The position numbers and the translations under genes were made by a program. A stretch of 64,000 nucleotides of DNA from Polyangiaceae bacterium. GTDB lineage: Bacteria; Myxococcota_A; Polyangia; Polyangiales; Polyangiaceae. The number at the start of each line of letters is the position of its first letter. The first letter of the stretch is position 1. Of the stretch, positions 37,186-47,774 are shown piece by piece. Below the pieces are notes generated by a model. That model made no database searches and was not told where the DNA came from. It saw nothing but the letters and a program-made list of their open reading frames with translations. The DNA lies in NCBI GenBank assembly GCA_019637295.1, contig JAHBVX010000005.1, positions 310,001 to 374,000 on the forward strand. Reading direction: 5' to 3'.

Positions 37186-37262
37186 CGGGGTGTACCTCAA
37201 CCTGGTAGAGGGCCGGCTTTGGGTGCCGGCTGTTGCAGGTTCAAATCCTGCCACCCCGACCA
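37186..37262 (+). tRNA. tRNA-Pro (anticodon TGG)
   Basis: The acceptor stem CGGGGTG (37186-37192) pairs with CACCCCG (37252-37258). The anticodon stem CCGGC/GCCGG encloses a TTTGGGT loop with anticodon TGG at 37220-37222, reading CCA codons (and by wobble others) for proline. The T-arm has the GTTCAAATCC loop. The discriminator A and CCA end (37260-37262) are genome-encoded. Confidence 0.96.
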
Positions 37263-46811: not shown

Positions 46812-47336
46812 ATGAGACTCGCCGCCGCGCTAGCCCTGGTTGCCCTGACCTCCGGCTGTATGGACCCGTCCAAGGACGCGAAGATCCCGGGCGAGCCCTT
46901 GGGCACCTTCCATGTGGTGGGCAAGCTGCAGCACTCGAGCTGTGGACCCGGTGCGGTGGGCTCGACGGACGTGTGGGAGTTCGACATGCAGCTCTCGAGA
47001 GACGGCCCGGATCTCTACTGGCTCAACGGGCAAGAGCCGATCTGGGGCAAGGTCGCCTCGGACGGCGTGTCCTTCTCCTTCGACACGGCGACGCAGGTCA
47101 CCCTGCGGGAGCCCAAGGGCGCGATGCCCGGCTGCGCCATCGTGCGCCGGGATGTGGCCAGCGGGACCCTGGACCACCCTGAAAACATAGGTGGTTTCGA
47201 AGGCTTGATGCGCTTCGGCTACGCCCAGACGCCGGACAGCGACTGCCTGGAGCTGGTGAGTGTGGACGGTGGGTTCGCTACCCTGCCGTGTGAGATCAGC
47301 TACCGCGTCTCAGCCACAAAGACCAAGGATCCCTGA
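46812..47336 (+). CDS. Small lipoprotein of unknown function
   Basis: The 174-aa protein has a clear signal peptide and lipobox (LALVALTSGC, Cys16). The mature part is beta-rich with conserved-looking Cys (SSCGPGAVG, MPGCAIV, DSDCLELV, TLPCEIS), suggesting two disulfides. I recognise no family. Its stop codon lies at the edge of an inverted repeat (GAGGCT-TG-AGCCTC, 47335-47348). Confidence 0.65.
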   Translation: MRLAAALALVALTSGCMDPSKDAKIPGEPLGTFHVVGKLQHSSCGPGAVGSTDVWEFDMQLSRDGPDLYWLNGQEPIWGKVASDGVSFSFDTATQVTLREPKGAMPGCAIVRRDVASGTLDHPENIGGFEGLMRFGYAQTPDSDCLELVSVDGGFATLPCEISYRVSATKTKDP

Positions 47337-47404
47337 GGCTTGAGCCTCCGGTGGGAGGCGCACTTTTGGCGCCAGGGCGCCGGCCATGCTATGTCTGAAC
47401 CAAC

Positions 47405-47774
47405 GTGCAGGCTGGACTCGTCCCGGATCTCGCCGGCGGGAGACTTCTCCCGCACCTGCACTGGACCCGGGGCCGCTTCGCTGCGGCCTCCGCTCATGGA
47501 AACGCCCCAGACGGCGGCGGCCGCGGTTGGAAGCGGCTCGCTGCTCTCGCGGCCCTGCCCGAAGGGCGACCGGCGTAGCGCCGGAGGAGGTAGGCACGAC
47601 ATGCAAATATGCAAACGCCCGAACCCTCGAACCTTTACCGGAGGGCACGCGCCCTGAGGTCCTGGAGCCGACCCCGGAGGTCGGCCCTTCCCGGACCCTA
47701 GCCGGGGGCTAGCGGTCAAGGTCGGGAGGACGGCACGAGCCGGGTGGCCCAGCGTCACCCGGCTCGTTTTTTTT
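47405..47774 (+). ncRNA. Candidate structured non-coding RNA region
   Basis: The 515-bp gap 47337-47851 holds no convincing gene. From 47405 it contains a chain of perfect stem-loops: GTGCAGG/CCTGCAC closing 47405-47461 around GCGGGAG-ACTT-CTCCCGC (47436-47453); GGCCGC/GCGGCC (47471-47488); CCGGCG-TAG-CGCCGG (47570-47584); GCCGACC/GGTCGGC (47667-47685); CTAGCC-GGG-GGCTAG (47698-47712); then the terminator. An AT-rich patch with ATGCAAA repeated at 47601 and 47609 could be a promoter for a shorter RNA of about 150 nt. No tmRNA, RNase P or SRP signature was seen. It may be a 3' UTR instead. Confidence 0.4.
47736..47774 (+). terminator. Strong intrinsic terminator
   Basis: CGAGCCGGGTG (47736-47746) pairs perfectly with CACCCGGCTCG (47756-47766), an 11-bp stem with a 9-nt loop, followed at once by eight T residues (47767-47774). 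It is the only such element I noticed in the window and it closes the structured gap, 77 bp before the next gene. Confidence 0.9.

Follow-up and report, generated by a model that had tools for sequence, protein, structure and literature searches.

The space between two genes in a 64,000-nt stretch of a Polyangiaceae genome (the window) appears to hold a member of a new family of peptide-coding structured RNA that acts in trans, a reading to which we assign a probability of roughly 0.6. In our best reading it is a gene standing on its own, present once in nearly every genome seen, whose RNA of ~380 nt is the mRNA of a micropeptide of ~14 residues. Judged from comparison of the copies, a conserved structured RNA is almost certain and translation of its ORF is highly probable; that the product acts in trans, with the folded 5′ domain setting the amount of peptide or the lifetime of the RNA, is a more tentative proposal. 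An ORF of ~14 codons is of a size overlooked by routine gene finding.

The first-pass annotation had described a gene-free gap of 515 bp whose hairpins resemble a folded RNA more than random GC-rich sequence and which closes in a perfect stem followed by eight Ts. The length is correct: position 47336 is the last of the upstream ORF and 47852 the first of the downstream one. The terminator is also present: its arms (47735–47746 and 47756–47767) are 12 nt long and 100% complementary, giving a stem of 12 bp, and the eight Ts occupy 47767–47774; a terminator scan counted 14 stem pairs. Folding beyond chance is confirmed as well. The minimum free energy of 47337–47774 is −244.1 kcal/mol, whereas shuffles average −211.2 (z = −5.73) and 0 of 100 are as good; the reverse strand of the same segment gives z = −2.93. 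The gap is not gene-free, however, as it contains a Shine-Dalgarno sequence and a conserved ORF of 18 codons, and the RNA would start near 47396 rather than at 47337 (Table 1). In a sister genome (G001), query bases 58–254 align at 73% identity with a copy in the syntenic position, and the first of these bases, 58, is position 47394. In both genomes the RNA is flanked by the same lipoprotein-like and membrane-protein-like genes, neither of which has a Pfam match in the window.

Table 1. Coordinates of the RNA gene, its parts and the flanking ORFs in the window
Feature	Position	Strand	Remarks
Lipoprotein-like ORF	46812–47336	+	Upstream neighbour, outside the RNA; also adjoins the RNA in the sister genome
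Promoter-like element	47366–47395	+	TTGGCG (47366–47371) and TGC-TATGTC (47387–47395), 18-nt spacer; predicted from sequence
RNA gene, ~380 nt	47396–47774	+	Putative 5′ end; R1/R2 model match begins at 47394
5′ domain	47405–47461	+	RNAalifold (17 copies), pair counts (47 and 92 copies), covarying column pairs
P1	47405–47411/47455–47461	+	Closing helix of the 5′ domain, around P1a, P1b and P1c
P1a	47414–47417/47420–47423	+	Just 3 pairs possible in the window copy
P1b	47424–47427/47432–47435	+	Fourth pair non-standard in the window copy
P1c	47436–47442/47447–47453	+	Present in most aligned copies
P2 hairpin, GGCCGC/GCGGCC	47471–47476/47483–47488	+	Read from the sequence; outside the covariation claim
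P3, CGCCC/GGGCG	47503–47507/47564–47568	+	Helix around a variable domain; element spans 47503–47568
P5 hairpin, CCGGC-GTAGC-GCCGG	47570–47584	+	Immediately 5′ of the Shine-Dalgarno sequence
Shine-Dalgarno, AGGAGG	47585–47590	+	Start codon 10 nt further on
Short ORF, 18 aa	47601–47657	+	MQICKRPNPRTFTGGHAP, stop TGA; predicted from sequence
Intrinsic terminator	47735–47774	+	12-bp perfect stem and eight Ts
Membrane-protein-like ORF, 603 aa	47852–49663	+	Downstream neighbour, outside the RNA

Copies of the RNA were collected with three models. R1, a covariance model built from 17 copies of the 5′ part, matches 47 of the 108 family (Polyangiaceae) genomes at one site each, with one site in the window's own genome. 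R2, rebuilt from 47 copies and covering the 5′ domain alone of family members, matches 64 of the 183 order genomes and 13 of 329 phylum genomes, in both cases only inside the family; a second R2 match in G004 has no Shine-Dalgarno hairpin and was dropped. R3, a model of the Shine-Dalgarno and ORF part from 48 copies, matches 137 of the 183 order genomes with a cut-off of E 0.05; in the phylum, with a cut-off of E 0.005, it matches 62 of 377. The R3 loci examined beyond the copies in hand (60 from the order and 16 from the phylum) were judged by eye on P5, the Shine-Dalgarno sequence, the ORF and the surroundings, and 51 and 7, respectively, were taken as real. The order loci rejected in this way were L170, L173, L174, L176, L177, L195, L196, L202 and L204, five of which read as 16S rRNA, and the phylum loci were L232 and L234–L241, of which L234 reads as 16S rRNA. 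The combination of P5 and Shine-Dalgarno sequence in the model also matches a 16S rRNA-like segment (L170, L176, L177, L202, L204 and L234), which contains GCCGGCGTCAAGCCGGAGGAAGGTGGGGATGACG in five of these six loci; this is probably a chance likeness.

Verified copies are present in 121 genomes (64 + 50 + 7), comprising 82 of the 108 family genomes and 114 of the 183 genomes of the order (Polyangiales), plus six in other orders of the class and one in another class. This count leaves out R3 matches in 15 further order genomes (11 of f5, G052, G063, G178 and G180) and retains the weak f3 members L197, L198 and L205. Twenty-six of the 108 family genomes have no verified copy, among them G063 with its uncounted R3 match. 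A second copy occurs in just one genome, G174, where two slightly different copies (L153 and the uncounted L154) lie on two short contigs and may reflect a mixed assembly. R2, which knows nothing of the ORF part, offers an independent test of the 57 copies that came from R3: in 29 it places the 5′ domain on the correct strand, 30–150 nt ahead of where the Shine-Dalgarno sequence ends. E is at most 0.1 for 27 of these 29, which include the copy from the other class (L233). An R2 match is absent from the expected place in the remaining 28, and the 18 false R3 loci gave no R2 match at all. Five of the 34 R2 matches on R3 member loci are misplaced or weak, being too near (L146), too far upstream (L184, L194), or weak, second and on the other strand (L148, L192). 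Early DNA matches in G020 and G048 were dropped as chance since the RNA is absent at those sites, and phages and plasmids gave no DNA match.

The conserved fold was first derived with RNAalifold from 17 copies aligned by MAFFT without constraint; of the 21 pairs predicted, 15 show compensatory changes. In 47 copies, 97.0% of pair cells pair, and in the 92 of the 121 copies aligned by R2, 95.9% are canonical, with double changes in 19 of the 21 pairs in each set. The covariation in the 92 copies is 0.624; shuffling lowers it to 0.191, and sliding the alignment to 0.087 or less. Alignments A3 and A5 are biased towards the model, having been fitted to its structure; A5 holds R2-matched copies only, including L146 and omitting L183, L184, L191 and L194. 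A ranking of column pairs by APC-corrected mutual information (92 rows, Neff ~75) itself uses no structure, and 17 of its top 18 are pairs of the model, the remaining one being an extension of P1. P3 lies outside the model and was tested separately. Of the 109 copies in which it could be parsed (out of 121), 91 have a run of five or more contiguous pairs. The mean is 5.62 pairs, and re-dealing the 3′ strands among copies lowers it to 3.63 (4.02 at the highest). Compensatory changes thus exceed both the shuffled and the slid controls, which argues for a structured RNA.

A lack of covariation among relatives, which the first-pass annotation had named as grounds for refutation, is thus not what the alignments show. 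The helices that covary are P1, P1a–c and P3, and some of the hairpins visible in the gap lie outside the conserved fold. P1c is absent from the alignment rows of several outer families, and relatives have, by eye, a hairpin of different sequence at the position of P2. P5 and the Shine-Dalgarno sequence are nearly invariant in 48 aligned copies. Some caution is due for the window copy itself, for which energy modelling predicts a rival fold: in its own ensemble the pair probability of P3 is 0 and that of P1 ~0.37, and its minimum free energy structure, in which P3 is missing, is 10 kcal/mol more stable than the fold in which the consensus helices are forced.

We looked in the fold for a switch that would control the ribosome-binding site. 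In some copies the C-rich 3′ strand of P2 seemed able to pair with the Shine-Dalgarno sequence, as it does in the forced window fold, but such pairing was rejected as a conserved feature. In the 40 nt before P3 of 111 copies, the longest run complementary to the Shine-Dalgarno sequence is 3.74, against 3.73 in shuffles, and re-dealt Shine-Dalgarno sequences reach the observed mean complementarity in 33 of 300 trials. The conserved sequestration that would mark a translational riboswitch thus does not appear within these 40 nt, and because no conserved partner is found there the Shine-Dalgarno sequence looks constitutively open. A pseudoknot linking the P1b loop to a downstream strand, sought by eye, forms no part of the proposed fold. 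A further helix, P6, between the 3′ half of the ORF and a strand after the stop codon, was rejected as a general feature, as matched strands outdo the mean of mismatched ones in just 57 of 101 copies. Twenty-one of the 101 pass z = −1.65, where ~5 would be expected, and P6 is strong in some members of f5, f9 and f10 (z to −5.6) and in some genera of f1. We retain it as a putative lineage-specific helix.

The ORF is the second conserved element. All 64 copies found by their 5′ domain have an ORF of 12–21 codons that begins 6–12 nt after AGGAGG; 47 of the 64 alone form an unbiased sample for this purpose, because the 17 seeds of R1 were chosen with the Shine-Dalgarno hairpin in view. Across all 121 copies, for which R3 partly selects an ORF of about the observed length, the spacing is again 6–12 nt, the start codon is ATG in 119 and GTG in 2, and the stop is TAG in 60, TGA in 37 and TAA in 24. 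The 106 distinct peptides are all 12–23 aa long (median 14, mostly 13–16), and 106 of 106 fall within the range of 11–23 codons in frame 0, compared with 30 of 106 in frame +1 and 12 of 106 in frame +2. The short ORF and its ribosome-binding site are thus conserved in frame, which argues that the RNA codes for a peptide. For the same reason, the earlier label of an undescribed structured non-coding RNA needs to be changed: covariation and the lack of an Rfam match sustain its first part, and the conserved short ORF inside the RNA speaks against calling it non-coding.

The peptides follow a rough consensus, M-[QHD]-S-T-x-G-[LS]-S-P-E-[GV]-x-x-S, and are rich in serine (18%). The window peptide and that of the sister genome (MSRYLTQIPGRVPFTGGPTP) diverge from this consensus and agree with each other only at their ends (FTGG..P). 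Part of the ORF conservation belongs to nucleotides rather than residues, because the window's genus reads the conserved CCGGAGG in another frame. The commonest serine codon is AGT (108 of 262), a preference that hints at a constraint at the nucleotide level; codons such as AGT are rare in the two genes neighbouring the RNA in the window, where GC3 is 0.86 and 0.93, compared with 0.63 in the short ORFs.

How such an RNA might work can be outlined as follows. It would be transcribed from its own promoter, ribosomes would load at the Shine-Dalgarno sequence and a Ser-rich peptide would be made; the folded 5′ domain would bind a protein or ligand and so set the peptide output or the lifetime of the RNA, and the product would work in trans. 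With its folded 5′ region it has the build of a stand-alone peptide gene, or of a dual-function sRNA, and we therefore favour a trans-acting peptide-coding RNA. The effector could be the peptide or the RNA. In the families where P6 forms, translation would remodel the RNA. A bolder proposal, which we consider rather improbable, is a phylum-level housekeeping RNA of the Myxococcota, similar to 6S RNA and tmRNA in age and copy number, that works through its own translation, its open start site and Ser-rich ORF either gating the fold or producing a signal peptide.

The same observations bear on a purely non-coding RNA acting in trans, whose body would bind a protein or a target RNA, which loading ribosomes would stabilise or remodel, and whose peptide would be inert. 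The variety of the peptides (106 among 121 copies), set beside a nearly fixed P5 and Shine-Dalgarno sequence and a retained 5′ structure, is what such an RNA would be expected to show, and the copies with P6 beyond z = −1.65 offer a place where a ribosome would remodel it. Yet the length, the start, the stop and the motif S-T-x-G-[LS]-S-P-E-[GV] recur across families, and the shortest copies, in which the T run starts 33–60 nt past the stop codon, consist of approximately the 5′ domain, P3–P5, the ORF, the terminator and little more, leaving scant 3′ body. We regard an inert peptide as fairly unlikely.

The favoured reading of a stand-alone, peptide-coding gene includes a promoter and a terminator of its own. 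In 45 of 92 copies the 40 nt ahead of the RNA contain an extended −10-like pattern, TGnTAnnnT, compared with 1.8% of shuffles and 0 of 578 flank windows. The window copy (TGCTATGTC) is outside these 45, lacking the last T of the pattern. Evidence for a promoter apart from this pattern is weak: a generic sigma-70 scan of the window found none at the RNA, and the full sigma-70 consensus was set aside because a hexamer score of at least 8/12 in 22 of 92 copies, against 14% of shuffles, is only a slight excess. At the other end, a terminator-like stem and T run are present in 108 of the 121 copies. From the start of the R2 match to the T run, the RNA has a median length of 429 nt (271–701 in 84 copies), and in the window it measures 381 nt to the end of that run.

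Genes next to the RNA vary by lineage. Besides the membrane protein they include what looks like a lipoprotein gene and, in several genera, a tRNA. Such a tRNA, with anticodon CCC by eye, lies near the RNA in L053, L057, L060, L069, L075 and L101, on the same strand or, in L057, on the opposite one. Among 108 copies, the next coding signal lies on the same strand in 51 and on the opposite strand in 34, is unclear in 17 and could not be sought in 6 whose flank is too short; the strand is a rough call from GC by codon position, leaving 85 classifiable copies. The gene that follows the RNA in L166 (an f5 genome) and in L178 (an f9 genome) encodes, by eye, a similar protein (HTFRDGVLSKLGHDL and HIFTEKDGLLSKVAHDL).

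This variety of neighbours, together with the 34 of 85 copies whose next gene is on the opposite strand, fits poorly with both of the cis-acting roles offered by the first-pass annotation, a regulator of the downstream membrane protein and a long 3′ UTR of the upstream lipoprotein gene. The former would be a leader or attenuator of the neighbouring gene, in which the short ORF is a leader peptide and the hairpin a conditional terminator. Its anatomy is plausible, as attenuators combine a short ORF, alternative pairings and a terminator, and in 51 of 85 copies the RNA shares its strand with the next gene, which in several genera encodes the membrane protein. Homologues of that protein occur in 68 of the 108 family genomes, and the same RNA lies upstream of many of them, judging from 30 family loci examined. 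Many others have no copy in the upstream sequence examined, however, and a regulated gene directly downstream on the same strand is not a constant of the family: besides the copies facing an opposite gene, some are followed by a tRNA or, by eye, a lipoprotein gene. With a terminator-like stem also present in 108 of the 121 copies, an attenuator is improbable as a general role and largely contradicted. A 3′ UTR of the lipoprotein mRNA is very improbable: the RNA does follow that gene on the same strand, its conserved part beginning 57 bp after the stop codon, and the sister genome shows the same order with the homologous gene, but in other lineages it lies upstream of a lipoprotein gene (by eye) or near other genes, and 45 of 92 copies have the −10-like element directly before the RNA.

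Comparison with described RNAs supports the novelty of the family. Rfam 15, searched at the gathering threshold in the window, in 20 family loci and in another 20, of which 19 come from outside the family, yields tRNAs only. What appears below the threshold looks like chance and concerns miRNA and a handful of other families; at the RNA itself there is no family match. The sole gathering match in the window is a tRNA-Pro (TGG) at 37186–37262, identified with ARAGORN. Among the open-licence literature matches listed, titles and the openings of abstracts contain no description of this RNA family.

tmRNA usually has one gene, a similar size and an internal short ORF, and the Rfam tmRNA model has 374 positions. 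The present RNA differs from it in having its own Shine-Dalgarno sequence and ATG, an end at a terminator and no Rfam match. That it might nevertheless be a diverged tmRNA, RNase P RNA or 6S RNA, as its mostly single copy, structure, terminator and tmRNA-like short ORF might suggest, is scarcely credible and already contradicted, since none of these was found in the Rfam scans of the window and 40 homologue loci and all have matches elsewhere in the genome: tmRNA (RF00023) at G000:C8 (best match E 1.2e-51), RNase P RNA (RF00010) at G000:C19 (the sole match, E 1.2e-92) and, weakly and below the cut-off, 6S RNA. The last match, at G000:C23:367353–367548 (L260; E 1.5e-4), is a candidate for the 6S RNA of the window's lineage.

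Dual-function RNAs that also encode a small protein include RNAIII and Spot 42/SpfP. SgrS/SgrT and VcdRP likewise combine one RNA with a small protein. The VcdP protein of VcdRP is reported to be longer, at 29 aa, and the present family differs from these dual-function sRNAs in keeping one elaborate fold across a whole order; coding sRNAs are surveyed in PMC5521070. A similar layout is seen in the Downstream-peptide (RF01704), glnA and yfr6 RNAs, which share a conserved folded 5′ region before a short ORF (PMC2864571). There, products are typically 17–100 aa, yfr6 is a cyanobacterial RNA of ~250 nt with a short ORF, and coding was argued from the pattern of changes. Relative to these accounts, the family described here has mostly shorter products, is best conserved in P5 and the Shine-Dalgarno sequence and belongs to another phylum; RF01704 gave no match in the Rfam scans of the window and the 40 homologue loci. 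Pxr of Myxococcus xanthus is also a small RNA of myxobacteria, described as a non-coding sRNA that blocks development.

A basic role for the RNA is likely because it is kept in 114 of 183 order genomes as well as found in other orders and one other class, and a structured RNA so widely kept had neither an Rfam match nor a description in the titles and abstract openings noted above. Its presence in cultured Sorangium and Polyangium makes expression, the peptide and the phenotype of a deletion directly testable. A pattern scan of named genomes returned 16 stretches, uncurated, which include Sorangium cellulosum So0157-2, So ce26 and So ceGT47, Polyangium species and a Polyangiaceae MAG.
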